Position numbers and translations under genes: made by a program
Shown here: positions 29,754 to 45,846 of the stretch, one piece after another
How positions within the stretch are numbered: the stretch's first letter is position 1
Layout of the letters: each line of letters starts with the position of its first letter
Notes under the pieces: generated by a model
Seen by the model: the letters and a program-made list of their open reading frames with translations, nothing else
What the model was told of the DNA's origin: nothing
The model's database searches: none
NCBI RefSeq assembly: GCF_000506985.1
Contig: NZ_KI650979.1
Span: 1,175,839-1,239,838, forward strand
Length of the DNA stretch: 64,000 bases
Direction of reading: 5' to 3'
From: Advenella kashmirensis W13003
GTDB taxonomy: Bacteria; Pseudomonadota; Gammaproteobacteria; Burkholderiales; Burkholderiaceae_B

Positions 29754-30503
29754 ATGTTTTCCTTTGAACTGACCATTTCGGAACAGCATGCGCGCGCTCC
29801 CGGCCTGTCCACGGCTACACAATGGGAACAATGGCTTCTGGCCTCCGAATCCCAAAAACAGGACATGGCCCTATCAGCGGCCTCCCAGGAGGGGCCCGCC
29901 CTTGATTTTCTGCCGGCCATGCAACGCCGCCGTCTCAGCCCGCTTTCGCGCCTGGTGTTTGCGGCGGCCTGGCCCATTCTGGAAACATGCCCGCAATGCC
30001 CGGTGGTGTTCTCTTCGCGCAATGGCGAAATCAATCGCAGCTTTCAATTACTGGTCCAACTGGCCCGGGGCGAAGGCGTCTCGCCCACCTCTTTCGGTCT
30101 TTCGGTACATAACGCCATCGCCGGACAACTGGCCATTCACCACGAGAACCATGCAGAGCAATCGGCCATTTCCGCCCACGAACACGGTCTGGAAAACGCC
30201 CTGCTCGAAGCCTGGCTGATGCTGCAGGATGGCGCCGACAGGGTGCTGGTGCTCTACGCGAACGACCCGCTCGCTGCCGAGTACGAAGTGGACATCGAAC
30301 GGGAGCCCTTTGCGTTTGCCACCGCCCTGCTGGTCGAAAAAGGCACAGACTGGCGTCTACAGCGAGATGATACGGTGCACACAGCTTCGGTCAATGCAGA
30401 GGGTGATATCGGAGTGACTGCGCGCCTGCTGGCCGGCCAGGATCACTGGACAACCCCAACCCCGCGAGCGCCTGCGGGCTGGACCTGGACCCGCCGCAGA
30501 TGA
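29754..30503 (+). CDS. apeC: Aryl polyene ketosynthase-like chain length factor
   Basis: The 249-residue product is a truncated ketosynthase-like protein: FGLSVHNAIAGQLAIHHENH corresponds to the ketosynthase active-site region but has no catalytic Cys, and ENALLEAWLMLQDGADRVLV follows. In aryl polyene systems such a protein pairs with an active ketosynthase (here the 41216 gene) and sets chain length. It is the first gene of the cluster and overlaps the acyltransferase gene by ATGA at 30500-30503. The symbol follows the Xenorhabdus/E. coli ape naming and rests on position plus domain type. Confidence 0.82.
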   Translation: MFSFELTISEQHARAPGLSTATQWEQWLLASESQKQDMALSAASQEGPALDFLPAMQRRRLSPLSRLVFAAAWPILETCPQCPVVFSSRNGEINRSFQLLVQLARGEGVSPTSFGLSVHNAIAGQLAIHHENHAEQSAISAHEHGLENALLEAWLMLQDGADRVLVLYANDPLAAEYEVDIEREPFAFATALLVEKGTDWRLQRDDTVHTASVNAEGDIGVTARLLAGQDHWTTPTPRAPAGWTWTRRR

Positions 30504-31276
30504 ACTCAGTCAGCACTTTTCTTTGGCATAAGTGGCGCTGGCTGGCCATCGCCAGCGGCTATATCGTGTTCGGCCTGTTTGGCCTTCTGGTCAAAGTCGT
30601 GCTGCTGCCCTTTACCTGCGGATTGCTGGATACGCGGCAACTGCGCAATCAGAACCGCGCGCGGCGCATCATCCAGTACCTGTGGCGGCAGTTTCTAAAG
30701 TTTGTACGCCTGATCGGCGGTTTCAATTACCATTTCCCCGACCACGACCAGTTGGGCCGTCCCGGACAGATCATCATCGCCAATCATCCGTCGCTGCTTG
30801 ATGTGGTGTTCATGCTGGCCCATGCCCGGCAATCGAACTGCATCGTCAAGCAAAGCCTGCTGGCCAACCCGTTTCTGAACAGCGCCATCCGGGCCTGTGG
30901 CTTCATTGCCAACGATGGGTCCCCACAGGTCATCGATCACGCCGTCGCGGCCTTGCAAGGCGGGCAGTCGATCCTGATTTTTCCCGAAGGCACGCGCACG
31001 GGCGACGACGAAATTATCCGTTTTCACCGAGGTGCCTGTGCGATCGCGCTGAGGGGCGCTACCGTGATCACGCCTGTTATAATCCGGATGCGCCCCCGCT
31101 GCTTCAAGCGGAACCAGCCGTGGTACCTCATCCCGCGTGACAAAGTTAATTATGAATTCATCATCGGCGATGACATTGATCCGGCAGCGTGGTTGTCGGG
31201 AAAGCATATGCCCGCAGCAACCCGGCAACTGAATGCCTACCTACAGACTTATTTTGAACGAGAACTACAGAAATGA
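30500..31276 (+). CDS. 1-acyl-sn-glycerol-3-phosphate acyltransferase-like protein (LPLAT)
   Basis: The 258-residue product is an LPLAT-family acyltransferase. One N-terminal membrane segment (SGYIVFGLFGLLVKVVLLPF) is followed by the HX4D motif NHPSLLDVVF and the FPEGTRTG motif. It should transfer the polyene acyl chain, or a lipid chain, to an acceptor in the inner membrane. Every aryl polyene cluster that I know carries one. It is coupled on both sides: ATGA with the chain length factor at 30500 and ATGA with the acyl carrier protein at 31273. Confidence 0.88.
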   Translation: MNSVSTFLWHKWRWLAIASGYIVFGLFGLLVKVVLLPFTCGLLDTRQLRNQNRARRIIQYLWRQFLKFVRLIGGFNYHFPDHDQLGRPGQIIIANHPSLLDVVFMLAHARQSNCIVKQSLLANPFLNSAIRACGFIANDGSPQVIDHAVAALQGGQSILIFPEGTRTGDDEIIRFHRGACAIALRGATVITPVIIRMRPRCFKRNQPWYLIPRDKVNYEFIIGDDIDPAAWLSGKHMPAATRQLNAYLQTYFERELQK

Positions 31277-31545
31277 CTACTGCGCTCAATCTTGAGATAA
31301 AAGAACTGATTATATCGAGCCTCGGACTCGAAGATATCGCGCCGGAAGACATTGATGACGGCGCCGCCCTGTTCGGCGAAGGACTGGGACTGGATTCGGT
31401 CGATGCACTGGAGCTGGGCCTTGCCCTGCAAAAGCATTTTGGCATCCAGTTCAATACAAAAACACAGAATTTGCGGGATCACTTCAAAGATATCAATACA
31501 CTTGCTGCGTTTGTTACTGAACTTAAAGACAACCCACAAACCTGA
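31273..31545 (+). CDS. apeE: Acyl carrier protein 1 of the pigment cluster
   Basis: The 90-residue product is an acyl carrier protein with the phosphopantetheine attachment motif LGLDSVDALELG; the serine is residue 42. It is acidic, as expected (EDIAPEDIDDGAALFGEGLG). It carries intermediates of the iterative polyene synthase and must be activated by the Sfp-type transferase at 44989. The start overlaps the stop of the LPLAT gene by ATGA. The second carrier protein gene begins 9 bases after its stop. Confidence 0.9.
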   Translation: MTTALNLEIKELIISSLGLEDIAPEDIDDGAALFGEGLGLDSVDALELGLALQKHFGIQFNTKTQNLRDHFKDINTLAAFVTELKDNPQT

Positions 31546-31554
31546 GGGGCTACC

Positions 31555-31806
31555 ATGAATCCATCAGACCAAATTTATCAGACGCTCAAGACTGCCCTGG
31601 TCGACCTGTTTGAAATCGAACCGGATCGTATTCGACCAGATGCCGACCTGTACAATGATTTGAATATCGATAGCATCGATGCCATCGATCTGATTGACCA
31701 TATCAAGCGCGAAACTGGCCAGAAACTGCAGGCCGAGGACTTTCGCAGTGTGCGCACCGTGCAGGATGTGGTGGACGCGGTCAATCGCAAACTCAGTCCC
31801 GCTTAA
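31555..31806 (+). CDS. apeF: Acyl carrier protein 2 of the pigment cluster
   Basis: The 83-residue product is a second acyl carrier protein, with LNIDSIDAIDLIDHIKRETG and the phosphopantetheine serine at residue 40. It is clearly different in sequence from the first carrier. In studied aryl polyene systems the two carriers divide the starter-loading and elongation work (family knowledge); which does what here is not known. GAGGGGC lies before the ATG. The small membrane protein follows after 14 bases. Confidence 0.9.
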   Translation: MNPSDQIYQTLKTALVDLFEIEPDRIRPDADLYNDLNIDSIDAIDLIDHIKRETGQKLQAEDFRSVRTVQDVVDAVNRKLSPA

Positions 31807-31820
31807 AGGAAAGCGGGCGG

Positions 31821-32393
31821 ATGTCATTCCCGTTGCGGCGCAGTGGCTTGCGCCTGGTGAATCTGCTGGTGATTCTGTCATTGGCGGCCTATCCTTTTCT
31901 TGTTTATTACGGCAGGGAAACAATAGGCTCGCTGTGGATCACGGCCGGATTGCTGCTGCTCTGGGGTATCAAGAGTGTCCTCAGCCGCCAGCGCTGGCAG
32001 CAGATCGTGACGCTGGCGCTGCTGGCGTGCGTGGCCGTTTTTGCCATGACCGATCGCCCCGGGTTTCTCTACTTCTATCCGGTTGTCATCAACCTGGTGC
32101 TGCTGGCCGTCTTTGCGGGCAGTCTGCTTACCTCCATGAGCGTGGTCGAGCGCATCGCGCGCAGTCGCGAGCCCGACCTGCCCGAGTCGGCCCGGCGTTA
32201 TACACGCAATGTCACCAAAGTGTGGTGTCTCTTCTTTATAGTGAACGGAAGCGTCATTTATATGCTGGGACAGGCGGGTTACACCCAGGCCTGGTCGGTC
32301 TATACCGGTTTCGTGTCCTATCTGCTGATGGGACTGCTCTTTGCATGTGAATGGATCTATCGTCGCCGATACAAGCGAAAAAACGCATTATGA
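31821..32393 (+). CDS. COG4648-type integral membrane protein of the pigment cluster
   Basis: The 190-residue product is hydrophobic, with about five to six membrane segments (VNLLVILSLAAYPFLVYYG, SLWITAGLLLLWGIKSVL, VINLVLLAVFAGSLLTSM and VYTGFVSYLLMGLLFACEW). It matches the uncharacterised COG4648 membrane proteins found in most aryl polyene clusters. Its role is unknown; it may anchor the synthase or help export. GGAAAGCGGGCGG precedes the start. Its stop overlaps the next gene by ATGA (32390-32393). Confidence 0.82.
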   Translation: MSFPLRRSGLRLVNLLVILSLAAYPFLVYYGRETIGSLWITAGLLLLWGIKSVLSRQRWQQIVTLALLACVAVFAMTDRPGFLYFYPVVINLVLLAVFAGSLLTSMSVVERIARSREPDLPESARRYTRNVTKVWCLFFIVNGSVIYMLGQAGYTQAWSVYTGFVSYLLMGLLFACEWIYRRRYKRKNAL

Positions 32394-34246
32394 GTGATTC
32401 AGTTCAGGGCGTGCTACTGCCTTTCCCCCGTCCCGATGCGCTGGTTGCTACCCGGCCTGCCCTGCTACGTTCGCAATTTGAAGCCCTGATCAACGCCCTG
32501 GTCCGGCAGTTGCAGGCGCAGTCCTGCTCCCGGGCGGGTTTGTGGTTCGAGGACGCCGGTCTGTTCAGTTGCGCGCTGCTGGGCTGCTGGGCAGCCGGCG
32601 TACAGCCGCTGCTGGCGCCTGATCTGCTGGACGATACCCGCAACTGGGTCGACACCGAGGCCGCCTTGTGGATCAGTGATCAGGAAATCCCTGATCCGTC
32701 CCTGCCCGTTCTGCGGCTGGATACCCTGCTTTTGAGCTCGCCGCCGGCCGTCAGCCAGCCAGACCGGCAAATACGAAATGCAGATAGCGTTCGCCCCGCA
32801 GCCAGCGTCTTTGAGGACCGCGGGCAGGACGGCCTGTTTTTGCCACTGCCTGCCGACGCACTGGCCTATTTGCGCACCTCCGGCTCAACGGGCACCCCGG
32901 GGGTCATTCGCAAGACATTCGCGCAACTGCATGCCGAAGCGCTCACGCTGATTGATCACTGGTCGTTGCACAGGCTGCACGCCACCGTGATTGCCAGCGT
33001 CAGCCATCAGCATATGTACGGGCTGACATTTCGTATTATGGTGCCCTTGCATGCCGGACTGGTGATGGATCGGGTGCAGGCCCGTTATCCCGAAACGCTG
33101 GCCGAGCAAACGCAGACACATGAACAGTGCATCTGGATCACCAGCCCCGCCCTGTTACAGCGCCTGCCCGAGACCCTGCCGTGGCCGGCGCTGTTGCCGC
33201 GCTTGTCGCGCGTCGTGTCTGCCGGCGGCACCCTCTCTGAGGACATCCGCGGCAGGCTGCTGCAAGCCCGTTGGCCACTGCACGAGATATATGGAAGCAC
33301 CGAAACCGGCGTTATCGCCACCCGGCACGAGCAGCCCTATTGGACGCCCTTTGCGGGCGTTGTCCTGGAAACAGACCAGGAAAGCCAACTGGCAGTGAGA
33401 TCGCCCTGGGCGCCAGAGATGCAGCAGACCGCCGACCTCATCAGTCACAACAGCGATGGCGCAGGTTTCTTCCTGCTGGGCCGGGCCGATCGCATCCTCA
33501 AACTCGAAGACAAACGCATTTCTCTGGCACGCATTGAACAGGCCGCGCTCGCTCACCCCTATGTCAGCGACATCCACTGCGCCCCCAGCCCGCTGGGCGG
33601 CCGGTTGTGCGCCATGGTGGAACTATCGGCAGCGGGCATCGAGGCGTTCCGGCAGCACGGACGCCGCAGGACCATTGAGGCCATTGCCAGCCTGCTGCGC
33701 ACGGCGGTGGACCCGCTGGCCATTCCCCGCCACTGGCGTTTGCTGGCCGCACTGCCGCGCAATGCCCAATCGAAGGTGACCCGGCAGCAAGTAGAGGATT
33801 GTTTCACCCGGCCGGTGCGCAGCCCGCAGTGGAAACGATGCAACACTGATACCAACACCAGCACACAGACGGACACTGCGATCGGAGCCGAAGCAAATAC
33901 CGAGCGCGGAACCACTGCCGGGGATGCTGACAAACACTGGGTTTGCGAGCTCAAGGCCCGTATCCCCCTGGAACTGGTGTATTTTTCGGGCCACTTCCCC
34001 TCTTTCCCCCTTGTCCCCGGCGTCGTGCAGCTGGGCTGGGCGCTGCAGCAGGCCGGACACTACGGATTGTGCCGTGGCGATCTACAACGAATCGAAAATC
34101 TTAAGTTTCAGCAGTTTTTGAGACCCGCCGATACCTGCACAATGACGTTAAAATGGGACAATGCTAAACATAAACTTTATTTCTCGGTCCGTACCGGAGA
34201 AACCATGACGGCATCGGGACGCGTTGCGTTCCGCGTTCCCGTCTGA
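32390..34246 (+). CDS. apeH: AMP-dependent acyl ligase fused to a hotdog dehydratase
   Basis: The 618-residue product joins two enzymes. Residues 1 to about 480 are an adenylating ligase: P-loop LRTSGSTGTPGVIRKTF, YGSTETGVIATR, LGRADRILKLEDKRISL. It probably activates the aromatic starter acid. A Thr/Asn-rich linker (about 483-515) follows. The last 100 residues form a FabA/FabZ-like hotdog (LVYFSGHFPSFPLVPGVVQ, IENLKFQQFL), a predicted 3-hydroxyacyl-ACP dehydratase. In E. coli-type clusters these are separate proteins (ApeH and ApeI). The start at 32390 is preferred over the in-frame 32351 because of the ATGA overlap with the upstream gene. Confidence 0.88.
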   Translation: MSDSVQGVLLPFPRPDALVATRPALLRSQFEALINALVRQLQAQSCSRAGLWFEDAGLFSCALLGCWAAGVQPLLAPDLLDDTRNWVDTEAALWISDQEIPDPSLPVLRLDTLLLSSPPAVSQPDRQIRNADSVRPAASVFEDRGQDGLFLPLPADALAYLRTSGSTGTPGVIRKTFAQLHAEALTLIDHWSLHRLHATVIASVSHQHMYGLTFRIMVPLHAGLVMDRVQARYPETLAEQTQTHEQCIWITSPALLQRLPETLPWPALLPRLSRVVSAGGTLSEDIRGRLLQARWPLHEIYGSTETGVIATRHEQPYWTPFAGVVLETDQESQLAVRSPWAPEMQQTADLISHNSDGAGFFLLGRADRILKLEDKRISLARIEQAALAHPYVSDIHCAPSPLGGRLCAMVELSAAGIEAFRQHGRRRTIEAIASLLRTAVDPLAIPRHWRLLAALPRNAQSKVTRQQVEDCFTRPVRSPQWKRCNTDTNTSTQTDTAIGAEANTERGTTAGDADKHWVCELKARIPLELVYFSGHFPSFPLVPGVVQLGWALQQAGHYGLCRGDLQRIENLKFQQFLRPADTCTMTLKWDNAKHKLYFSVRTGETMTASGRVAFRVPV

Positions 34247-34316
34247 TTTTGTATCGAAATGTTGCCATGACTCTCTGGAAACAGGCCCTGACAGACGTGA
34301 TGGCGGTCACACTACT

Positions 34317-35060
34317 ATGAATCGACCCATTGCCCTGATCCCGTTCTATAACCATCCGGATGCCATTCTGTCCGTGGTCGACCAATTGCGTCAGCATGAA
34401 TTGCCGGTGCTCATCGTCGACGACGGTTCCGATGCCGCTTCGCGCACTGTCCTGGACACCTTCAGCACCTCGCCCCATGTACAAGTGCATCGCAAGCCCA
34501 AAAACGGCGGCAAAGGCAGCGCCGTCAAGGTAGGGTTCGAACTGGCCGATTCAATGGGTTATACGCATGTACTGCAAGTGGATGCAGATGGCCAGCACCA
34601 CCTGGCCGACGTGCCTGCCTTTCTGGCACTCTCTGAAGCGCACCCCGATACCGTCATTTGCGGCCAACCTGTGTACGGTCACGATATTCCCGCCGCCCGT
34701 CTGCACGGTCGCAAGCTGACCCGGTTCTGGGTCAATCTGCAGACCCTGTCGCACGCGATTCCCGACGCCCTTTGCGGCTTTCGTCTGTATCCGCTTGAAG
34801 CGGTGCGATTTGTCAGACAAACGCCTTATATGGGCAACTGGATGGATTTCGACCCCGAAATCCTGATTCACCTGTACTGGCGTGATACGCCGCTGCGCTG
34901 GATTCCGACCCGCGTTTCATACGCCACCGACGGCGTCTCCCATTACCGCATGGTCCGCGACAACCTGCTCATGTCTCGCATGCATGCGCGCAGTTGCCTG
35001 CACATGTTGCCATATCTGCCCTCGCTGCTGCGGCGCGCCCTCAAAAGAGACGGCACATGA
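34317..35060 (+). CDS. Family 2 glycosyltransferase of the pigment cluster
   Basis: The 247-residue product is a GT-A fold glycosyltransferase: PIALIPFYNHPDAILSVVDQ, VLIVDDGSD, GGKGSAVKVGFELA and the DXD-bearing LQVDADGQHH. It looks like the polyprenyl-phosphate-type GT2 branch. It probably adds a sugar to the polyene carboxylate or lipid anchor (inference). The 70-base gap before it is the widest so far in the operon, and its ribosome site is weak. Its stop overlaps the next acyltransferase gene by ATGA (35057-35060). In enterobacterial clusters the two are a single fusion protein, as I recall. Confidence 0.87.
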   Translation: MNRPIALIPFYNHPDAILSVVDQLRQHELPVLIVDDGSDAASRTVLDTFSTSPHVQVHRKPKNGGKGSAVKVGFELADSMGYTHVLQVDADGQHHLADVPAFLALSEAHPDTVICGQPVYGHDIPAARLHGRKLTRFWVNLQTLSHAIPDALCGFRLYPLEAVRFVRQTPYMGNWMDFDPEILIHLYWRDTPLRWIPTRVSYATDGVSHYRMVRDNLLMSRMHARSCLHMLPYLPSLLRRALKRDGT

Positions 35061-35983
35061 GCCAGCACTGGTCCACCCGCCAGGAGCGAGGCAATCTTTT
35101 CGTGCTCCGGCTGGTCACCCGGCTGATACGCTACTGCCCCCCATGGCTGATCGCCCTTCTGATGCGCCTGGTGGTGCTGTACTTTTTCATCACCTCACCT
35201 TCTGAACGGCGCAATATCGCCGAATACCAGCAGCACCTGCGATCCTGGTCGGGACGCTCCGACCTGCTGCCCGCCTTTGCGCCCGTTTATCGGCAATTTG
35301 TCGCCTTCGGGCAGGCCATGACCGACCGCTTTGCCGTCTGGCAGGGACGCCTGCGCTATGAACACATCGTGATACATGACCCCGATGGCATCCATCGCGA
35401 GATGCTCTACGCAAAAGGCCGTGGCCAGATATTGATCTGTTCGCATCTGGGCAACACCGAAATCAGTCGCGCACTGGTTTCCCATCACAAGGGGCTGGTG
35501 CTCAATATCCTGATTCACAGCAAGCATGCACAACAGTACAACCAGGTCATGGCCGATCTGGGGGCGGACAATGACATCCGCCTGCTGCAGGTGACCGATC
35601 TGGATATTGATACCATGATGATGTTGCAGCAGCGCGTGGATAATGGTGAATGGATCGCCATTGCCGCCGATCGTGAGCCGGTACGCGGCGAAAAGGTGGT
35701 GCAGGTGCCCTTCCTGGGCGAAAATGTGTCGTTTCCGCAAGGCCCCTGGCTGATGGCAGGCCTGCTGCGGGCCAGCGTCAACACCCTGTTCTGCACCCGT
35801 CAGCACGGCCGTTATGCCCTGCATATCGAACGCATGAGCGAACGTATCCAGTGGTCGCGCCAGGATCGCGACCAGGTCATCCACGGCTGGGTACAGCGCT
35901 ATGCCGGTCGCCTGGAGCACGTCTGCATGCAGGCTCCGCTGCAGTGGTTCAATTTCTATGATTTCTGGAAACATCATGAATAA
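35057..35983 (+). CDS. LpxL/HtrB-like lysophospholipid acyltransferase
   Basis: The 308-residue product is an LpxL/HtrB-like (COG4261) acyltransferase. After an N-terminal hydrophobic segment (WLIALLMRLVVLYFFITSPS) it has CSHLGNTEISRAL with the catalytic His and an acidic partner, and ADREPVRGEKVVQVPFLGE. It is likely to attach an acyl chain to the glycosylated anchor of the pigment at the membrane. It is coupled to the upstream glycosyltransferase by ATGA and overlaps the thioesterase gene by 8 bases. Start chosen by the overlap; the earlier in-frame codon lies inside the upstream gene. Confidence 0.87.
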   Translation: MSQHWSTRQERGNLFVLRLVTRLIRYCPPWLIALLMRLVVLYFFITSPSERRNIAEYQQHLRSWSGRSDLLPAFAPVYRQFVAFGQAMTDRFAVWQGRLRYEHIVIHDPDGIHREMLYAKGRGQILICSHLGNTEISRALVSHHKGLVLNILIHSKHAQQYNQVMADLGADNDIRLLQVTDLDIDTMMMLQQRVDNGEWIAIAADREPVRGEKVVQVPFLGENVSFPQGPWLMAGLLRASVNTLFCTRQHGRYALHIERMSERIQWSRQDRDQVIHGWVQRYAGRLEHVCMQAPLQWFNFYDFWKHHE

Positions 35984-36410
35984 GCATCCCGGCCTGGGCA
36001 TTTCGGTGCCAATGACCGTTCCCTTCTTCGATGTCGATGCCATGCAGATCGTCTGGCATGGACATTACGTGAAGTATCTGGAAATCGCCCGCTGTGCCCT
36101 GCTGGATAAACTGGGATATAACTACGACACCATGCGCGAGGCCGGCTATGTCTGGCCGGTGGTGACCATGCAACTCAAATATGTGCGCCCGGCCCTGTTC
36201 GGCCAGCAGATACAGGTACACGCGCAAATACAGGAATGGGAGTCGCGCCTGCGTATTCACTACACGATTACCGACGCCTCTTCGGGCGAGCGACTCACCC
36301 AGGCTGAAACCACGCAAGTGGCGGTCCTGCTGGAGACCCGTGAAATGCAATTTGAAACACCGCAGGACTGGCAAACGCTTATTGCCCGGATCCTGCAGTC
36401 ACCTTCCTGA
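35976..36410 (+). CDS. apeK: Hotdog acyl-CoA/ACP thioesterase (4-hydroxybenzoyl-CoA thioesterase type)
   Basis: The 144-residue product is a small hotdog thioesterase with FFDVDAMQIVWHGHYVKYLE, the Asp/His motif of the 4HBT/YbgC family. It may release the finished polyene or edit misprimed carriers. It is in the usual place between the acyltransferase and the LolA-like gene and overlaps the upstream gene by 8 bases. No clear ribosome site is seen, which fits coupling. Substrate is inferred from the cluster only. Confidence 0.86.
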   Translation: MNKHPGLGISVPMTVPFFDVDAMQIVWHGHYVKYLEIARCALLDKLGYNYDTMREAGYVWPVVTMQLKYVRPALFGQQIQVHAQIQEWESRLRIHYTITDASSGERLTQAETTQVAVLLETREMQFETPQDWQTLIARILQSPS

Positions 36411-36435
36411 CCTTCCATTGCGAGCGATATCTATT

Positions 36436-37059
36436 ATGTCCTTGATTTCTCCCGTGCTATCGGCTCTACGTTTTTCCTTGCTGCTGTCTCTGCTGCTGTG
36501 CGGGGCCGCGCAGGCATTCACCCTGCAGGATCTGCAACAGCAACTGTCGGCCCACCAGACGGTCCAGGGCGATGTGCAACAGCGCCGGTTCCTGCGCTCC
36601 CTTGAACAGCCGCTGATCAGCGAGGGAACATTCGTCATGCAGGCGCAAAAAGGGTTGCTATGGGAAACTCGCAGCCCGATCGCCAGCCTGATCCGGATTA
36701 CCCCAGACGGCATGACGCAGAAAGACAGCGCCGGGAACTGGCAGCCATTGCAACAGCAAGGGGCCGGCAGTCAATCACAGATCCGCCTTTTCATGGATCT
36801 GCTTGCTGGCAACACCCGTGCCCTATCGGGGCAATTCGACCTCTCATTGCAAGGTGATGCCGGAGACTGGACCCTGACGCTGGGCCCCACCTCTTCCATA
36901 CTTAAACAGATTTTCCAGCGCATCGTCATCAGGGGTGGGCAGACCGTTAACCAGGTCACGCTCAGCGAAACGCAGGGCGACAGGACCGAAATCCTGTTTT
37001 CGAACCTGCGTCTTGATCAGCCCTTGCCAGCAGACGCCCGGCATGCGCTTGAACACTGA
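36436..37059 (+). CDS. LolA-like periplasmic carrier of the pigment cluster
   Basis: The 207-residue product resembles the outer-membrane lipoprotein carrier LolA. A signal peptide (LRFSLLLSLLLCGAAQA, cleaved before FTLQD) is followed by the LolA-type start LQDLQQQLSAHQTVQGDVQQ, RFLRSL, EGTFVMQAQKGLLWETRSP and IRITPDGM. It is expected to shuttle the lipid-linked polyene across the periplasm to the outer membrane. A 17-base overlap joins it to the MMPL exporter gene. It is distinct from a housekeeping lolA, judged by its cluster position. Confidence 0.86.
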   Translation: MSLISPVLSALRFSLLLSLLLCGAAQAFTLQDLQQQLSAHQTVQGDVQQRRFLRSLEQPLISEGTFVMQAQKGLLWETRSPIASLIRITPDGMTQKDSAGNWQPLQQQGAGSQSQIRLFMDLLAGNTRALSGQFDLSLQGDAGDWTLTLGPTSSILKQIFQRIVIRGGQTVNQVTLSETQGDRTEILFSNLRLDQPLPADARHALEH

Positions 37060-39397
37060 ACGCTGCTGGGCGGGCCTGTATGCCCTGGGGCTGATCGGGC
37101 TGCTTGTGTTTGCCGGGTGGCAACTGGCCTGGCGCCAGCCCATCCATACCGACCTGCTCGCCCTGCTGCCGCCCGAACAAAAACAAAGCGAAATCCAGGC
37201 ACAGGCCCAGCAGGCTATCCGCCAGACACTGAACCGCCAGATCATTATGCTGACCAGCGCCGCCGATCCGGCCACGGCCCTGGCTGCAGCACAAAGACAG
37301 GCGCAGCAATGGACAGCCAGCGGCCTGTTCGAGCGGGTGGACCTGCAGGTCTCGGGCGATCTGACCGCCTTGCGCAACGAACTCAAATATATGGACCAGG
37401 CGGGCTTACCCGCCCGGGCACGTGAACAACTGGCTCATGATCCGCAGGCATGGTTCGGCCAGCGCGCCCAGCGCATCATGTCGCCGCTGGGCGAGCAGAC
37501 GCTGGTCCCCGCCGACCAGGACTGGCTTGGCTTTGCGTCGCGCGTCTCGGACAAACTGCAGTCGGCCTCGGCCGTGCACTATGACATCACCAGCAATACC
37601 ATGCAAATCGAGGCCGATAACCGGATCTGGTATGTGATGCGCGCCCAGCTGGATGCCACAGATAGGCCCGGGCGCGACGAAAAGTTGCTCGGACTCATTG
37701 AACATACCCGGCAACAGGCCGACAGCGAGCAGGTGCGCGTACTGATGGCGGGCGGCGCCATCTACAGTGCCCACGGCAAAGCCGAAGGCGGTCGCGAAAG
37801 CACCTGGATGAGCCTGACCGGTAGCGGCCTGACGATCCTGTTTTTATTGCTCATGTTTCGTTCGCCACGCATTCTGCTGCTGGCGCTGCCCGTGACGGCC
37901 GGCCTGCTGACCGGATTTGCCGCCTGCATCGCGCTGCTGGGCTCGATCCATATCCTTACTCTCATTATCGGTACCAGCCTGGTCGGGCTGGTCGTCGATT
38001 TTCCCCTGCACTGGCTCAGCCACGCCACGCTGGACGCACGCTGGGAGGCCCGGGAGGCGGTCAGGCGCGTGTCGCGCCCCTTTATCATCAGCCTGTCGGT
38101 CACGGTCACCGGCTATCTGTTTCTGCTGCTCACGCCACTGCCCATCCTGCAGCAAACCGCCGTCTTCTCTGCGGCATCGCTGATCAGCACGTTCCTGTTT
38201 ACGCGCCTGCTGCTTCCCGCACTGTTCAGGCGCTGGCAGCCCCGGCCGATGCCGGGCCTGGTACCCTTTCTGGCCCGTCTGCTGGCAGCCATACGCCACA
38301 CCGGCGAACGTATTCTGGCTCGACCGCTCTTGGCGCTGCTGGCGGTCGTCGTACTGGGGGGCGGTTTGTACCTGAGCAATTGGCATGATGATATCCGCAA
38401 CTGGGTGAGCACACCCGAACCCTTGCTGCAGCAAGCCATACAAGTGGGACAGCTGACCGGCATTGAACCAACCAGTCAATACTTTATTGTTCAGGCGAAC
38501 GACGAAGACGGCCTGCTGCGAACCGAACAGCAGTTGGCGACGCGGTTGGACACCCTGGTCACACAAGGGCATTTACGCAGTTACAACGCTCTGAGCCAAT
38601 GGGTCAATCCGCCAGGGGAACAGGCCGCGCTGAAAACAACGCTCGCCACGCTATCGACCCGCCCGGCAGACTGGGCGCCACTCCGGGCGCTGGGTGTGCC
38701 GGACAACGCGGTGCAGGCAGAACTGGCGCGTCGTGCGCAGCAACCGGTGCTCACCATCGACCAGGCGCTGCGCGGCCCATTGGCCGAACCCTGGCGCCCC
38801 CTCTGGCTGGGACAGGACGAACAGGGCCGCCCCAGCAGCATGGTCACCCTGAACGGGCTGGATGATCCGGCCCTGCTGTCGTCTGCCGTCGGCACGCTGC
38901 CCGGCGTCACACTCGTAGATCAGCGCAACCATATCAATGCGCTTTTTGCCCAGACGCGCCTGGAAGCCATCATTCTGAAACTACTCTCGTATCTTGTCGG
39001 CTTTCTCATTCTGTATCGTGTCTTTACCGCCAGGGCAGCCTTGCGCATTTTGCTGGTGCCGCTGTCTGCCTCGGTCACCGTCATGAGCCTGTCCGGCCTC
39101 ATCGGCATACCTCTGAACCTGTTTTGCATCTTCGGCCTGCTGCTGGTGACAGCCATCGGGATCGACTACGCCGTCTACGCCTACACCCCCACCCTGCCGC
39201 CGGATGAAAAAATGGCCGGTATCGTCATGACCTCGATGACCACCATGATCACCTTCGGCCTGCTCTACTTCAGCTCGACCCCGGCGGTCTCGACTTTCGG
39301 ACTGAGTGTCGTACTGGGGGTCCTGTGCAACGTCATATATACTTTCTGGTATATGCGAATTTTTCTGACAAATGGGAACTCCTCTATACAGTCATAA
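37043..39397 (+). CDS. MMPL/RND-type exporter of the pigment cluster
   Basis: The 784-residue product is an MMPL-like RND exporter. A first membrane segment (AGLYALGLIGLLVFAGWQLA) precedes a large periplasmic loop starting HTDLLALLPPEQKQSEIQAQ. Two blocks of five or six helices follow (for example ILTLIIGTSLVGLVVDFPLH with the family Asp, and NLFCIFGLLLVTAIGIDYAV). The last segment is near the C-terminus (VSTFGLSVVLGVLCNVIYTF). It likely lifts the pigment lipid from the inner membrane to the LolA-like carrier, in whose gene it starts. ATG 37043 avoids a long antisense-like extension to 36935. Confidence 0.9.
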   Translation: MRLNTERCWAGLYALGLIGLLVFAGWQLAWRQPIHTDLLALLPPEQKQSEIQAQAQQAIRQTLNRQIIMLTSAADPATALAAAQRQAQQWTASGLFERVDLQVSGDLTALRNELKYMDQAGLPARAREQLAHDPQAWFGQRAQRIMSPLGEQTLVPADQDWLGFASRVSDKLQSASAVHYDITSNTMQIEADNRIWYVMRAQLDATDRPGRDEKLLGLIEHTRQQADSEQVRVLMAGGAIYSAHGKAEGGRESTWMSLTGSGLTILFLLLMFRSPRILLLALPVTAGLLTGFAACIALLGSIHILTLIIGTSLVGLVVDFPLHWLSHATLDARWEAREAVRRVSRPFIISLSVTVTGYLFLLLTPLPILQQTAVFSAASLISTFLFTRLLLPALFRRWQPRPMPGLVPFLARLLAAIRHTGERILARPLLALLAVVVLGGGLYLSNWHDDIRNWVSTPEPLLQQAIQVGQLTGIEPTSQYFIVQANDEDGLLRTEQQLATRLDTLVTQGHLRSYNALSQWVNPPGEQAALKTTLATLSTRPADWAPLRALGVPDNAVQAELARRAQQPVLTIDQALRGPLAEPWRPLWLGQDEQGRPSSMVTLNGLDDPALLSSAVGTLPGVTLVDQRNHINALFAQTRLEAIILKLLSYLVGFLILYRVFTARAALRILLVPLSASVTVMSLSGLIGIPLNLFCIFGLLLVTAIGIDYAVYAYTPTLPPDEKMAGIVMTSMTTMITFGLLYFSSTPAVSTFGLSVVLGVLCNVIYTFWYMRIFLTNGNSSIQS

Positions 39398-39406
39398 AGG
39401 CATACT

Positions 39407-40663
39407 ATGAATACAGTCAGCTTACCTAAATGTACAGATGTCGCCATCATCGGCGCCGGACCGTCGGGTTCGGTGGCCGCCGCTCTTTTGCGCCAGCGCG
39501 GCTGGCAGGTGTGCGTGCTTGAACGCCAGCATTTCCCCCGCTTCTCTATCGGGGAAAGTCTGCTGCCCTACTGCATGGAAATTCTGGAAGAAGCCGGCCT
39601 GCTGCAGGCAGTCAATGAGGCCGGATTCCAGGTCAAAAACGGCGCCGCCTTTACCTGGGGAGACCGGAACACGACCATTGATTTCCGGGACAAATTTACA
39701 GCCGGCCCCGGCACGACCTTCCAGGTGCAGCGCGCGCGCTTTGACCAGATTCTGATCCAGGAAGCGGAAAAAATGGGTGCCGAGGTTCATTTCGGCCACA
39801 CGGTAAACAATCTGGACTTCACGGACGAACATGCCACCTTGTCAGTCAGCACCGACCAGAATCAGTCCTACACCCTGCAGGCGCGCTTCGTTCTGGATGC
39901 CAGTGGCTATGGACGCGTCCTGCCACGCCTGCTGAATCTGGAGCGTCCATCGGCATTCCCGTTGCGAGAGGCCTGGTTCACCCATATACAGGACAACATC
40001 AGCGACCCGGATTTCGACCGCGAAAAAATTGTCATCGCAACGCATCCGCGCGATCGCGCCATCTGGATGTGGCTGATTCCATTCAGCCAGGGCAGGTGCT
40101 CTATCGGCGTCGTCGGCGAACCAAGCCACCTGGCCATGAACGGACGCGACCCGCTGGTATTTCTGCAAGACATAACCCGCGAAATTCCACTACTGAAGCG
40201 GTTGCTGGAAAACGCCATATGGGATACGCCCGTCAATCCCCTGCGAGGCTATTCGGCCAACGTGACATCGCTGCACGGCTCGCGCTATGCGCTGCTGGGC
40301 AATGCTGCCGAGTTTCTGGATCCGGTTTTTTCTTCCGGCGTCACCATTGCCATGCACTCGGCAAAACTGGCGACGGCACTCGTGGACAAAACCCTGCACG
40401 GACAAACGCCCGACTGGGAGAAGGATTTTGTCCAGGCATTGCGCGTAGGCATCGAAACCTTCAAAACATATGTGAGTGGCTGGTATGACTGTCGCTTCCA
40501 GGATGTTATATACTCCACACAAATGAACCAGGACATTCGGCGCATGATTGCCTCTGTTCTGGCAGGATATGCTTGGGATATCAGCAATCCCTTTGTTGAA
40601 AAATCGGAAAGGCGCCTGAACGCGTTGGCGGAGATATGTGGTGAAGCACAACTGGATACTTGA
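39407..40663 (+). CDS. FAD-dependent oxidoreductase with flavin-dependent halogenase signatures
   Basis: The 418-residue product is a flavoprotein. The FAD motif is IIGAGPSGSVAAALLRQRGW (residues 14-33). Three halogenase hallmarks are readable: K77 in FQVKNGAAFTWG, where the catalytic lysine of acyl/pyrrolyl halogenases lies; WMWLIP at 220-225 (the WxWxIP motif); and FLDPVFSSG at 303-311 (the FxxPxxSxG motif). This points to a flavin-dependent halogenase acting on a carrier-bound or phenolic substrate. Related dehydrogenases share parts of this pattern, so activity is not proven. It starts 9 bases after the exporter gene and overlaps the DUF3261 lipoprotein gene by 26 bases. Confidence 0.82.
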   Translation: MNTVSLPKCTDVAIIGAGPSGSVAAALLRQRGWQVCVLERQHFPRFSIGESLLPYCMEILEEAGLLQAVNEAGFQVKNGAAFTWGDRNTTIDFRDKFTAGPGTTFQVQRARFDQILIQEAEKMGAEVHFGHTVNNLDFTDEHATLSVSTDQNQSYTLQARFVLDASGYGRVLPRLLNLERPSAFPLREAWFTHIQDNISDPDFDREKIVIATHPRDRAIWMWLIPFSQGRCSIGVVGEPSHLAMNGRDPLVFLQDITREIPLLKRLLENAIWDTPVNPLRGYSANVTSLHGSRYALLGNAAEFLDPVFSSGVTIAMHSAKLATALVDKTLHGQTPDWEKDFVQALRVGIETFKTYVSGWYDCRFQDVIYSTQMNQDIRRMIASVLAGYAWDISNPFVEKSERRLNALAEICGEAQLDT

Positions 40664-41219
40664 TGGCAGGCCTGTACGTGCCTGGCTGTGTCTGCTGTTG
40701 GCGCTGCTGCTCGCCGGGTGTGCGGCAACGTCGACGCTGCCGCGCCAATATAGCGGACCTGCCCAGGTTCAATCCTGGAAACTGAGTCTGGTAACGGCCT
40801 CGGGCCAGACCGAAGACAGCCTGCTTGTCATCCAGCCCGAAGCGCAAAACGCAACCCGCTGGATCCAGACCAATCCGCTGGGCGCGCCGCTGGCCCGTTT
40901 GTCGCTGCATGACGGAAGCTGGAGCACCGACGGTTTTTTACCGCCCAATCCCCGCGCCCGCCAGCTGTTTGAAGCGATTATTGCCGCGCAGATGCCGCGT
41001 GCACAATGGCCTGCCGCCTATCCGGATACGGTTGTGACGACATCCACCGAAGGCGGCTTCGCTACGTACACATTCAGCCGCCAGGGACGCCTGCTCTGGT
41101 CGATCCGGTTGCCGGCGATGACCACTGCGAACTCCGGTACGAGCCATCAGCCATCCACGCACATCGTGCTGCCGGACCACAGCCAATGGCAACTGACTCC
41201 AATATCGACACGCACATGA
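40638..41219 (+). CDS. DUF3261 lipoprotein
   Basis: The 193-residue product is a predicted outer-membrane or periplasmic lipoprotein: signal sequence with lipobox LLLALLLAGC, the Cys being the lipidation site, then a beta-rich DUF3261 domain (VQSWKLSLVTASGQTEDSL, TNPLGAPLARLSLHDGSW). DUF3261 proteins are regular members of aryl polyene clusters, probably helping to place the lipid in the outer membrane (inference). A GTG start (two tandem GTG codons at 40638) follows GGAG. The gene starts inside the flavoprotein gene and its stop overlaps the next by ATGA. Confidence 0.86.
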   Translation: MVKHNWILDGRPVRAWLCLLLALLLAGCAATSTLPRQYSGPAQVQSWKLSLVTASGQTEDSLLVIQPEAQNATRWIQTNPLGAPLARLSLHDGSWSTDGFLPPNPRARQLFEAIIAAQMPRAQWPAAYPDTVVTTSTEGGFATYTFSRQGRLLWSIRLPAMTTANSGTSHQPSTHIVLPDHSQWQLTPISTRT

Positions 41220-42412
41220 GAAGTTACCTGAGCCAGCCTGCCACTGTCAGTTCCTTGGGGCTGACCTTTGCCGACACCATGCAGGCGCTGTATTCATCAT
41301 CGGCCTCACCCCTGGCGCCGGAATCTCAATGGGTCAAAGGCAAAACACTGTACACCGGCCGCCCTGCTGCCCCGCCCCCGGCCTTGCCGGCCGACACGCC
41401 TGCCCAATTCGATACACATAACAACCGGCTGATGTGGCATGCCGCCAGTCAGCTGGATGAACGTATCCTGCACGCACGCTCGACCTATGGCGGGCAGCGG
41501 ATCGGCGTAATCATCGGCACGACAACCACCGGCGTTGACGACAACTACCCGGCCTTTGACGCCTTCGCCCGCGAGGGAACATGGAATCGCGATCTCTACC
41601 GGCATGAATACCAATTGCTGTCGGCACCCGCCGATTTTCTGGCGCATCATTATGGCCTGAGCGGCCCGGTGTATAGCATTTCAACGGCCTGCACCTCCGG
41701 GGCACGGGCCATTATTAGCGCGCACCGGCTGCTGAGCAACGACATTTGCGATGCGGTTATTTGCGGCGGCGTCGATTCGCTGGCCCGCCTGACCATCAAC
41801 GGCTTCGACTCCCTGCAGGCACTGTCCGCGGGTCTAGCCAATCCATTTTCAGTCAATCGGGATGGGATCAATATCGGCGAAGCCGCCGCGCTGTTTGTCA
41901 TGACACGCAATGAGCAGGATGGCCTGCCCCTGCTCGGCTATGGCAACAGCGCCGATGCCTGGCATATGTCTTCACCGGATCCCAAGGCAAATGGCGCCAT
42001 TCTGGCGATTGGCGAAGCACTGAGCCGCGCCGGCGTGCAGCCTGCAGACATTGGCTGGATCAATTTGCATGGCACCGCAACCGAGCTGAACGACAGCATG
42101 GAAAGCCTGGCGCTGGCCACCTGCTTTCCCCAAGGGGTGCCCTGCACCAGTACCAAACCGCTCACCGGCCATACCCTGGGTGCTGCGGGAGCGCTGGAAG
42201 CGGCGCTGCTGTGGGGCGTCATTGACCGCGGTTTTAATCCGACGGGCGCATTACCCGCGCAGCTCTGGGACGGCCAGGCAGATCCGGCCGTGCCGCCGAT
42301 CCAGATCACAGACAAGACGTCAAAATGGCAGATGCAGCGCCGCCTGGGCATGAGCCTGTCCTTTGCTTTCGGCGGCAACAATGCCGTCCTGATACTGGGA
42401 GAACGCGAATGA
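41216..42412 (+). CDS. apeO: Beta-ketoacyl-ACP synthase of the aryl polyene synthase
   Basis: The 398-residue product is a complete FabF-like ketosynthase with Cys159 in ISTACTSGARAI, the first His in NLHGTATELND and the second in TGHTLGAAGALE. It is therefore catalytically competent and the likely partner of the chain length factor encoded at 29754. It would elongate the aryl starter with malonyl units. ATG 41216 overlaps the stop of the lipoprotein gene by ATGA, and its own stop overlaps the dehydratase gene in the same way (42409-42412). Confidence 0.93.
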   Translation: MRSYLSQPATVSSLGLTFADTMQALYSSSASPLAPESQWVKGKTLYTGRPAAPPPALPADTPAQFDTHNNRLMWHAASQLDERILHARSTYGGQRIGVIIGTTTTGVDDNYPAFDAFAREGTWNRDLYRHEYQLLSAPADFLAHHYGLSGPVYSISTACTSGARAIISAHRLLSNDICDAVICGGVDSLARLTINGFDSLQALSAGLANPFSVNRDGINIGEAAALFVMTRNEQDGLPLLGYGNSADAWHMSSPDPKANGAILAIGEALSRAGVQPADIGWINLHGTATELNDSMESLALATCFPQGVPCTSTKPLTGHTLGAAGALEAALLWGVIDRGFNPTGALPAQLWDGQADPAVPPIQITDKTSKWQMQRRLGMSLSFAFGGNNAVLILGERE

Positions 42413-42912
42413 TGGACACCCCCATTCGACATCTTTCCCCGCTCCTGCCCCATGCCGGCGATATGATTCTGCTGGACGAAATTTGCAGCTATTCCGACGA
42501 TCGCCTGCAGGCCGTGACCCGCATCGGGCCGGATCACCTGTTTCTGGATGAAAACGGGCAATTGCCCATGTGGGTTTCTGTGGAAATCATGGCGCAGGCC
42601 ATCGCGGCGCTGGCCGGATGTCATGCGCATGATGCCGGCGAACCCGTCAAGCTCGGCTTTCTGCTGGGCAGTCGCCACGTTGATATTCTACGACCCAGTG
42701 TTGCCCAGGGCAGCCTGCTGCGCGTCGACGTTACGGCCTCAACACGCGACCAGGCCAGCGGCTTCGGCGTTTTCGACTGCGTACTCAGCCTGCTCAACGA
42801 CACTTGTGATGATTCGCAAGACGAGGGGCAGGGCGAGCCCCTGGTCAATGCCCGGCTCAGCGTGTTCAGTCCACCCGATCTCGACCACTACCTGCAGGAG
42901 CAGACGACATGA
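42409..42912 (+). CDS. apeP: Hotdog 3-hydroxyacyl-ACP dehydratase
   Basis: The 167-residue product is a FabZ/FabA-like dehydratase: RHLSPLLPHAGDMILLDEIC contains the active-site His, and MWVSVEIMAQAIAALAGCHA is the central helix with the acidic residue. It makes the trans double bonds of the polyene together with the dehydratase domain fused to the ligase. Translation is coupled at both ends by ATGA overlaps (42409 and 42909). The C-terminal tail is polar and variable. Confidence 0.9.
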   Translation: MMDTPIRHLSPLLPHAGDMILLDEICSYSDDRLQAVTRIGPDHLFLDENGQLPMWVSVEIMAQAIAALAGCHAHDAGEPVKLGFLLGSRHVDILRPSVAQGSLLRVDVTASTRDQASGFGVFDCVLSLLNDTCDDSQDEGQGEPLVNARLSVFSPPDLDHYLQEQTT

Positions 42913-43640
42913 CAGCCCCTCGTGTTCTTGTGACCGGCTCCAGTCGGGGCATCGGCAAAGCCATCGCCCTGGAACTGGCGCAGGCCGGTTACGACATCAC
43001 ACTCCATTGCCACAGCCGGCGCGATGATGCGCTGCAGGTGGCCGACCAGATCCAGGCCCTGGGTCGCCACGCCGACCTGCTTCAGTTCGACGTTTCCGAT
43101 CGCCAGGCCTGCCGGCAGGCATTACAGGAATACCTGGACAAAAACGACGCCTTTTACGGCGTGGTGCTCAATGCCGGCCTGACCCGTGACAACGCCTTTC
43201 CGGCTTTTACCGACGAAGACTGGGATCTGGTGCTGGATACCAATCTGGGCGGATTCTACAATGTCCTGCATCCGCTGATCATGCCCATGATTCGCCGGCG
43301 CAAACCAGGCCGCATTGTGTGCATGGCTTCCGTTTCGGGGCTGATCGGCAATCGCGGCCAGGTCAATTACAGCGCCTCCAAGGCGGGCGTGATCGGCGCG
43401 GCCAAGGCCCTGGCCGTGGAACTGGCAAAGCGTCGCATCACCGTCAACTGCGTGGCGCCCGGCCTGATCGACACCGATATGCTGAACGAACAGGTACCCG
43501 TCGACGAGATTCTCAAAATGATTCCCGCCCAGCGCGCGGGCCAGGCTGAAGAGGTGGCGGCCGCCGTTGCCTTTCTGATGTCGGAAAAAGCCGGCTACAT
43601 TACCCGCCAGGTCCTGGCCGTCAATGGAGGGTTGTGCTAA
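42909..43640 (+). CDS. apeQ: 3-oxoacyl-ACP reductase (FabG-like) of the pigment cluster
   Basis: The 243-residue product is a FabG-type SDR. It has TGSSRGIGKAIALELAQAGY, LNAGLTRD (in the NNAG position), the catalytic Ser in MASVSGLIGNRGQ, YSASKAG and the FabG-type end YITRQVLAVNGG. It reduces the beta-keto intermediates of the polyene chain. NADPH use is expected from the family. Its stop overlaps the start of the last ketosynthase gene by one base (TAATG). Confidence 0.93.
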   Translation: MTAPRVLVTGSSRGIGKAIALELAQAGYDITLHCHSRRDDALQVADQIQALGRHADLLQFDVSDRQACRQALQEYLDKNDAFYGVVLNAGLTRDNAFPAFTDEDWDLVLDTNLGGFYNVLHPLIMPMIRRRKPGRIVCMASVSGLIGNRGQVNYSASKAGVIGAAKALAVELAKRRITVNCVAPGLIDTDMLNEQVPVDEILKMIPAQRAGQAEEVAAAVAFLMSEKAGYITRQVLAVNGGLC

Positions 43641-44866
43641 TGAAACGCGTCGTTGTGACCGGGATGGGCGGGGTGACCGCATTGGGCAATACCTGGCCGC
43701 AAATCCGCCAGGCCTTTTCCCGCGGGCGCAGTGCCGTACGCACCATGCCGGAATGGGATCGCCACACTGAACTGAATACCCGGCTGGCCGCCCCCATTAT
43801 TGACTATCGCCATCCGGCACACTGGCAGCGCAAGCAGTTGCGCAGTCTGGGCAGGGTCTCGCAACTGTGCGTCGATGCGGCCGAACGCGCGCTCACCGAC
43901 GCAGGGCTGCTTGGCGACCCGCGTATCCAGTCCGGCGCCATGGGCGTGGCCTGCGGTTCATCTACCGGTAGCACCGAGGATGTCAGAGCACTGGCCAGCC
44001 TGATCATGCATGGCGAATCACAGGGCGTCAGCGCCAATACGTATGTGCGCATGATGCCCCATACCACCGCAGCCAACGTCGGCATTTTCTTTGGCCTGAA
44101 GGGACGCATTATTCCCACCTCCAGCGCCTGCACCTCGGGCAGCCAGGGCATCGGCTACGCATACGAGGCAATCAAATACGGCCTGATCCCCATGATGCTG
44201 GCCGGCGGGGGCGAAGAGCTATGCCCCAGCGAAGCCTATGTGTTTGATTCCCTGTATGCCACCAGTCAGCGTAACCAGGCCCCCCACACCTCGCCACGCC
44301 CCTACGATCAGGACCGCGACGGGCTGGTCATTGGCGAGGGTGCCGGCATGTTCGTACTGGAAGAGCGCGATCATGCCCTGGCGCGCGGCGCACGACTTTA
44401 TGCAGAAATCGTGGGCTTTGGCAGCAATTCGGACGGCGCCCATATTACACGCCCGCAATCCGACACCATGCAGCGAGCCATGGCTCTGGCCATTGAAGAT
44501 GCAGGCATTCACGCCGACCAGATCGGCTATGTCAACGGCCACGGCACGGCGACCGAACAGGGGGATATTGCCGAATCCCACGCAACGGCAGCCCTGTTCG
44601 GCAATCGCATCGCCATCAGTTCACAGAAAAGCTTCCTGGGACATACGCTGGGCGCCTGCGGGGCCCTGGAGTCCTGGTTTTCCATTGCCATGATGCACGA
44701 TCGCTCATTTGCGCCAACGCTGAATCTGGAACGGGTGGATTCGCGTTGCGCCGAACTGGATTATCTGCAGCATGACTGGCGCACCATCGACACCGACTAT
44801 GTCATGAATAATAATTTTGCGTTTGGCGGCATCAACACCTCGCTTGTTTTTCGCAAGCCCGATTAA
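43640..44866 (+). CDS. apeR: Second beta-ketoacyl-ACP synthase of the aryl polyene cluster
   Basis: The 408-residue product is a FabF-like ketosynthase with all catalytic residues: Cys164 in TSSACTSGSQGIGY, His in NGHGTATEQGD and His in KSFLGHTLGACGALE. In aryl polyene systems this third ketosynthase has been linked to initiation or to a side acyl chain (family knowledge). The start MKRVVVTGMGGVTALGN at 43640 is preferred over 43634. It is the last plus-strand gene of the cluster; the transferase gene that follows is convergent. Confidence 0.92.
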   Translation: MKRVVVTGMGGVTALGNTWPQIRQAFSRGRSAVRTMPEWDRHTELNTRLAAPIIDYRHPAHWQRKQLRSLGRVSQLCVDAAERALTDAGLLGDPRIQSGAMGVACGSSTGSTEDVRALASLIMHGESQGVSANTYVRMMPHTTAANVGIFFGLKGRIIPTSSACTSGSQGIGYAYEAIKYGLIPMMLAGGGEELCPSEAYVFDSLYATSQRNQAPHTSPRPYDQDRDGLVIGEGAGMFVLEERDHALARGARLYAEIVGFGSNSDGAHITRPQSDTMQRAMALAIEDAGIHADQIGYVNGHGTATEQGDIAESHATAALFGNRIAISSQKSFLGHTLGACGALESWFSIAMMHDRSFAPTLNLERVDSRCAELDYLQHDWRTIDTDYVMNNNFAFGGINTSLVFRKPD

Positions 44867-44988: not shown

Positions 44989-45846
44989 TCAAAGGGTGAC
45001 GGGCGATTCCGGGTAAAAACAGACCGCTTGCGCGAGCGTCAACGGACGCGTATGTCCCGGCACGGCCTGCCTGGCGACGATGCCCGCCGACGCAGAATCG
45101 TGCTGTGCCGCGCCCACGAGCGGCGCTGCGCCCTGCTTGCCGGCCAGGCCCTGCCCTGGCCATACCACCGCCATCATCCAGTCGTCATCAATCATGGCCG
45201 ACAGACCGCACCACGGCCCGTTTCCGAGCCCGACCAGTTGCCATCCGCGAACGGGCATCGGCGTTACGTTTTGCCTGTCTGCCTGCCGACCAGGCAAAAC
45301 CTGATCCATGTTGTCAGGCAGGCCCGCAAGGCGGGACGCGATCCCTGCGCTCACTGTCGCGCACACCGAGCCGCGTCTGATGCCAACCTTGAACATATCG
45401 GCCGGAAAATCGCCGCCCGCCGCCTTGACCAGGGCTTCCTTGAGCGTCCACAATCGGTAAAAGAGGCGCGTTCGGCACTGCCCTTGCAGACAGCGCAATA
45501 AGGCCAGTTCCTGCTCATCCGACACCAGTTCCGCCAGCGCCAGTTCGTCGACCGACTTCATTCTTTCCAGATCCACGCCGATCTGTGCATGAATACTTGA
45601 AGCCGCCCACAGGGCATGCCCATCGCTATGAGACAGATTGGAGGAACGATATGGGATTAATAATCGACGCTGCAGGGCGCGGCTCACTCGCCACTCATGC
45701 GCGTTACGCCCGGCCAGCCGGGCAGTTTCGCGCGCACGATCCCCCGCAGTGAGCGCCTGCGGATCATATTCCGCCTGCAAGGCAGGACCGGCAAACCAAA
45801 GCTGCATTGGTGCCGGCGAACCGGAATCGGAAACGAAAAACGGCAT
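44989..45846 (-). CDS. Sfp-type 4'-phosphopantetheinyl transferase
   Basis: The 285-residue product is an Sfp/Gsp-type phosphopantetheinyl transferase that activates carrier proteins. The Mg-binding and catalytic motifs IGVDLERMKS and RLWTLKEALVKAAGGDFP are intact, and SLSHSDG-like SNLSHSDGHALWAAS is the CoA-binding strand. It very likely modifies the two carrier proteins of the pigment cluster, at whose 3' end it sits in the opposite direction. The start codon (45846) lies inside a 17-base inverted repeat and has no clear ribosome site. The C-terminal third (about 200-285) is longer than in Sfp and variable. Confidence 0.9.
   Translation of the reverse strand: MPFFVSDSGSPAPMQLWFAGPALQAEYDPQALTAGDRARETARLAGRNAHEWRVSRALQRRLLIPYRSSNLSHSDGHALWAASSIHAQIGVDLERMKSVDELALAELVSDEQELALLRCLQGQCRTRLFYRLWTLKEALVKAAGGDFPADMFKVGIRRGSVCATVSAGIASRLAGLPDNMDQVLPGRQADRQNVTPMPVRGWQLVGLGNGPWCGLSAMIDDDWMMAVVWPGQGLAGKQGAAPLVGAAQHDSASAGIVARQAVPGHTRPLTLAQAVCFYPESPVTL

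Follow-up and report, generated by a model that had tools for sequence, protein, structure and literature searches.

A halogenase-like flavoprotein of the Advenella kashmirensis aryl polyene cluster and its separate subfamily

As far as the consulted parts of the papers cited here go, aryl polyene (APE) clusters have been described as the most abundant family of biosynthetic clusters, and APE head groups as differing in methylation and halogenation (PMC8253772); the rings of flexirubins likewise differ in methylation and/or chlorination (PMC3992019). The same partial sources report halogenase genes in the xanthomonadin clusters of two Xanthomonas species and none in that of Lysobacter, the pigment of which is without a bromine pattern (PMC3691225), a dibrominated xanthomonadin produced by Steroidobacter strain 35Y (PMC5979037), and "a probable halogenase" within the APE clusters of Acetobacteraceae (PMC8776678). 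The subject of this report is a 418-residue halogenase-like flavoprotein encoded in a stretch of 64,000 nucleotides from Advenella kashmirensis W13003 (contig NZ_KI650979.1), hereafter the window. Judged from its sequence, the gene is a regular and conserved part of one large group of APE clusters and a plausible halogenase, and it belongs to a distinct subfamily, termed clade I here, inside the radiation of the flavin-dependent halogenases.

The flavoprotein and its place among halogenases

The gene runs from ATG to TGA at 39407..40663 (+), its start lying 9 bases past the stop of the exporter gene apeM and its end overlapped by the next open reading frame (ORF) as listed. The first-pass annotation had described this ORF as a flavoprotein with four motifs, and all four are present, those for which it named residues at just those residues: by motif match, the flavin adenine dinucleotide (FAD) motif GAGPSGS at residues 16-22 (39452..39472, +); by alignment, K77 (codon 39635..39637, +), which sits in FQVKNGAAFTWG (residues 74-85); and, by both, WMWLIP as the WxWxIP motif at residues 220-225 (40064..40081, +) and FLDPVFSSG as the FxxPxxSxG motif at residues 303-311 (40313..40339, +). 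GESLLP is also present, at residues 49-54, and the alignment gives GN, with N299 encoded at 40301..40303 (+), where the compared halogenases have GD. Compared with four orthologues of the same genus (L003-L006), the corrected rate of non-synonymous change is about one-tenth of the synonymous rate. The sequence of the protein, its cluster, its conservation and its assignment to a family are firm.

The Pfam matches were to FAD_binding_3 (85.2 bits, cut-off 22) and Trp_halogenase (70.9 bits, cut-off 21). The best NCBIfam matches all scored below their cut-offs and were rejected as assignments, namely the CmlS halogenase equivalog NF033113 (162.8 bits against 900), the QhpG equivalog NF049967 (132.2 bits against 240) and the geranylgeranyl reductase subfamily TIGR02032 (120.4 bits against 158.8).

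The alignment comprised 127 rows (104 of clade I and 23 of its sister group, clade II) and seven from the PDB, the window protein itself (L001), identical copies and L040 having been dropped. The tree was built from 82 rows, i.e., 51 of clade I (less than 80% alike), 23 of clade II, seven from the PDB and one outgroup; the clade II rows were three others and 20 of the 38 weaker relatives found among 369 genomes drawn from the class, the window's own included, the remaining 18 being left out. Clade I grouped with the solved structure 3nix (support 100/100), their common stem being 2.31 long, and clade II (98/99) was placed as their sister (joint node 95/83); the two clades fell among CmlS, CndH, FasV, ChlB4, Mpy16 and PltA. 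Since 3nix falls inside clade I, the clade as labelled needs two changes on the tree. The outgroup was the LodB-like L167 alone, on a branch of length 10, and the root of the tree is therefore unsure; searches for outgroups matched QhpG in none of 229 genomes at 1e-60, which does not imply its absence, and LodB-like proteins in two of the 229, both below cut-off. By its position in the tree, clade I lies inside the halogenase radiation. The predicted fold (predicted local distance difference test score 93.0) agrees, with 3nix topping the VIA-align rows, the next nine rows all halogenases, and the reductase structure 3oz2 at Foldseek rank 50, beneath halogenases.

Clade II genes lie mostly near APE genes of differing layout. 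We take clade II as the ArcA/xanthomonadin type, by synteny only and without Xanthomonas or Azoarcus sequences in the tree, because the layout of the Azospirillum clade II locus (MipA/OmpV, acyltransferase, glycosyltransferase, two methyltransferases, deacetylase, exporter and LolA) matches that of the Azoarcus arc cluster in the consulted part of its description (PMC3949708). Membership of the window gene in the xanthomonadin/arcuflavin-type clade is ruled out by its position in clade I (100/100). A more distant flavoprotein, at 21-28% identity, occurs in the APE-like loci L213 and L214 (genomes G411 and G412) and perhaps represents a third clade.

Nine residues, K77, W220, W222, I224, P225, F303, P306, S309 and G311, are identical in 104/104 clade I, 23/23 clade II and 7/7 PDB rows, and K77 aligns with the lysine of six solved halogenases (PltA, Mpy16, ChlB4, CmlS, CndH and FasV). 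The FAD motif is kept in 102 or 103 of the 104 clade I rows. Other residues set clade I apart, occurring in 95% or more of its rows but in no row of clade II or of the six halogenases; among them are A17, R187, H213, G281, N299, E302, W359, Y388 and W390, and 3nix has all nine of these. Because they are shared with this Bacteroidota protein, clade I may well have one old, separate function common to Proteobacteria and Bacteroidota.

Distribution and relation to ApeB

That the gene is unique to the window is ruled out by 553 relatives in named genomes, identified by a pattern scan, the best 80 of which were kept for locus counts, with neighbors counted among 18 query genes only. Within these 80 loci the upstream neighbor was apeM in 69, and the downstream neighbor was apeN in 53 and apeO in 21 (74 together). 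Pseudomonas, Stutzerimonas, Shewanella, Neisseria, Snodgrassella, Pasteurellaceae, Herbaspirillum, Cupriavidus, Achromobacter and one Campylobacter metagenome-assembled genome were represented among them, and the closest named relative among the matches listed was from Advenella sp. FME57 (83% identity). The Neisseriaceae loci L019, L022 and L027 had no APE gene around their copy, with ApeR at 65-69% identity elsewhere in the genome. Matches in a plasmid collection came from Acinetobacter baumannii and Pseudoalteromonas, each with a full cluster in the record opened, from Caballeronia and Burkholderia multivorans, for which the gene alone was read, and from Aureispira anguillae (Bacteroidota), where a copy at 43% lies near an MMPL/acyltransferase/methyltransferase fusion and an AMP (adenosine monophosphate)-binding protein. 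Two chromosome-sized Neisseria gonorrhoeae records (H1 and H2) matched at about 60%, the match being split into three pieces and possibly reflecting a broken gene. A search of phages gave no match. Public records name the relatives NAD(P)/FAD-dependent oxidoreductase or tryptophan 7-halogenase.

In the draw of 369 genomes, 17 carried a clade I gene (the window's own included) and 38 a weaker relative. ApeP was present in 37, including 16 of the 17 clade I genomes, so that 16 of the 37 ApeP genomes carry the clade I gene. With E. coli ApeB, the proposed ring methyltransferase of E. coli-type clusters, as query, 25 matches were found in the draw; 17 counted as strong, at 40% identity or above, and genome G000 had none. 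A clade I gene and a strong ApeB coexisted in a single drawn genome, G222, on separate contigs; there was a weak ApeQ-like match on the ApeB contig and no match around a second ApeP. The 16 ApeP stretches that lack the clade I gene included four with ApeB (L203, L204, L208 and L212) and two, L210 and L215, in which no APE gene was shown, so not all 16 are APE clusters. Of 50 named clade I genomes, which correspond to 50 of the 80 loci, 43 lacked ApeB; in the remaining seven it lay on a contig differing in length from that of the clade I gene, and the 20 kb fetched there showed no APE gene.

ApeB and a clade I gene occurred together in none of the 136 loci examined in this comparison. Counted within clusters, ApeB was found in 0/66 genomes with the clade I gene and 5/16 without it (p = 0.00016), a comparison of related genomes drawn from hand-copied lists in which the 66 are 50 named and 16 drawn genomes that possibly overlap; in G348, which is among the five, ApeB lies about 22 kb from ApeP. 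Because no examined cluster has both, the clade I enzyme and ApeB are suggested to be alternative means of tailoring the head group. Seven loci from Stutzerimonas, Shewanella and Neisseria (L225-L231) contain a strong ApeB-like methyltransferase by itself, the 20 kb fetched showing none of the APE genes.

The aryl polyene cluster of the window

The Pfam scan delimits an APE cluster from 29754 to 44866, running from ApeC to ApeR and including an ApeH-ApeI fusion, and it contains the features expected of one: the ApeC/O ketosynthase pair, two acyl carrier proteins (ACPs), a ligase, the ApeI/P dehydratases, a ketoreductase and the export genes L, M and N. All of its genes are on the forward strand, and their order is that of the coordinates that follow. 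The cluster opens with ApeC, ketosynthase chain-length-factor-like (29754..30503, PF13723), the acyltransferase ApeD (30500..31276, PF01553), the ACPs ApeE (31273..31545) and ApeF (31555..31806), both PF00550, the membrane protein ApeG (31821..32393, matching the E. coli cluster), and the ApeH-ApeI fusion of AMP ligase and dehydratase (32351..34246, PF00501 and PF22818). Next are the two parts of ApeJ, a family 2 glycosyltransferase (34224..35060, PF00535) and a lipid-A-type acyltransferase (34994..35983, PF03279), and the thioesterase ApeK (35901..36410, PF13279), the start codons of these three being unsettled. LolA-like ApeL (36181..37059, PF03548) and the exporter ApeM (36935..39397) both probably have internal true starts; ApeM has no Pfam match at 0.001, yet it is collinear with, and matches, the E. 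coli MMPL gene.

The first-pass annotation had placed the flavoprotein inside an APE operon between exporter and lipoprotein genes, and this location is borne out, with ApeM upstream and the DUF3261 lipoprotein ApeN (40638..41219, PF11659; start codon unsettled) downstream. The cluster is completed by the ketosynthase ApeO (41006..42412) and the dehydratase ApeP (42325..42912, PF22817), each probably with an internal true start, the ketoreductase ApeQ (42909..43640) and the ketosynthase ApeR (43634..44866). A 4'-phosphopantetheinyl transferase (44989..45846, -, PF01648) adjoins it on the opposite strand, and an ornithine cyclodeaminase-family gene (46049-47143, -) and an Lrp/AsnC regulator (47430-47879, +) lie just downstream. 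The window has no match to an aromatic amino acid lyase, and the aryl starter unit of its cluster therefore probably comes via another route; as 58 of the 80 named loci (L017-L096) do have a lyase match, the lyase is not tied to the flavoprotein gene.

Proposed function and known systems

A role for the flavoprotein in a tailoring step on the APE pathway is likely, with high confidence, and the likeliest reaction for that step, at about an even chance, would be halogenation. More fully, the gene product could be the halogenase of the 4-hydroxyphenyl head group in these clusters, replacing methylation by ApeB, a proposal that we consider evenly balanced between right and wrong. A general flavin reductase acting in trans would provide reduced FAD, which would react with O2 and halide to give a hypohalous species; this would travel through a tunnel to K77, which would direct halogenation of the electron-rich head group while the aryl or aryl-polyene intermediate is bound to an ACP, and the halogen would take the place of the ring methyl group that ApeB is proposed to add in E. 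coli-type clusters. The cofactor cycle, the use of halide, the ACP-bound substrate, the structure of the head group, the ring position and the choice of halogen are all steps that we infer.

The earlier interpretation as a halogenase is supported in part: it agrees with family, tree, fold and the invariant K77 and motifs, and has to be qualified in that the protein belongs to a subfamily of its own in which two halogenase aspartates are replaced. This replacement is among several points that weigh against halogenation. All six solved halogenases have Asp at positions 281 and 299, a criterion seen in these structures rather than a published definition; clade II has Asn at 281 and Asp at 299 (23/23 each), and clade I has Gly at 281 in 100/104 rows and Asn at 299 in 104/104, and clade I is accordingly classed as a subfamily that diverges from these six. 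N299 stands where the GD motif has its Asp, a residue that contacts FAD in this fold. One scan pattern includes N299, making sampling bias possible for pattern-derived loci; in 25 clade I loci from a pattern-free genome search, N299 and K77 were each present in 25/25. To the same side belong the lack of a flavin reductase domain among the scanned cluster genes, the genome-level distribution of ApeB (1/16 ApeP genomes with the clade I gene and 6/21 without, p = 0.11), and the methyltransferase domain in the same stretch as the Aureispira copy. In the parts of the literature covered, no halogenated pigment of any clade I organism was found; nor did titles and the openings of abstracts, few from subscription papers, yield a characterisation or assay of the subfamily. 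Finally, the consulted part of the Azoarcus work gives arcuflavin as halogen-free C41H52O4 and arcA as an annotated halogenase (PMC3949708). The case made here rests on family resemblance, and this precedent is a warning that the pigment of a cluster with an annotated halogenase gene may still be free of halogen.

Three other explanations share these data. A flavin monooxygenase of halogenase ancestry, its halide site disused, might hydroxylate the head group or chain; we regard this as unlikely, given that K77 and WxWxIP are kept in all 104 rows and that sequence and fold are nearer most halogenases than hydroxylases. The name of 3nix, the match to the geranylgeranyl reductase superfamily (TIGR02032, though below its cut-off) and a location adjoining the export genes, not head-group genes, would suit a flavin enzyme that dehydrogenates or reduces the polyene or its lipid anchor, an explanation that is nonetheless improbable, as the name of 3nix is no assay and 3oz2 ranks beneath halogenases. 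A genuine halogenase that is silent or optional, leaving the pigment mostly unhalogenated as is maybe so for ArcA, has the arcuflavin formula on its side; against it stand the placement, by synteny only, of ArcA-type genes in the other clade, and the strict conservation and low non-synonymous change of the clade I gene, and we judge it quite doubtful.

A broader possibility, which we advance tentatively and with less than even confidence, builds on the head-group halogenase: clade I would form a halogenase lineage in its own right, its FAD site remodelled (Gly 281, Asn 299), giving a halogenated head group where E. coli-type clusters methylate, the outer membranes of Pseudomonas, Shewanella, Acinetobacter, Neisseria, Pseudoalteromonas and their relatives would commonly contain halogenated APE lipids, and 3nix would be a solved Bacteroidota member, perhaps a flexirubin chlorinase. 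If the clade I enzyme does halogenate, Gram-negative envelopes would carry halogenated pigments far more often than the example of xanthomonadin implies; a function could also be assigned to 3nix, and phenol-ring halogenases would become available as a ready set.

Among known systems, the E. coli CFT073 APE cluster has the same gene order as that of the window, but its exporter and DUF3261 genes are adjacent, without an intervening flavoprotein. ApeB, a protein unrelated to the clade I flavoprotein and not seen in any examined cluster with a clade I gene, would be its counterpart in the tailoring of the head group. The ArcA/xanthomonadin-type halogenases resemble the window gene in their APE clusters, their motifs and their position as sister clade; they differ in having only 30-36% identity to it, in keeping GD and in cluster layout. 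The chlorinases PltA, Mpy16 and ChlB4 act on carrier-bound substrates and share 26-29% identity with the window protein, but they have Asp at 281 and 299 and serve other pathways. The nearest solved structure, 3nix from Cytophaga hutchinsonii (Bacteroidota), is a structural genomics entry named flavoprotein/dehydrogenase with no function given.
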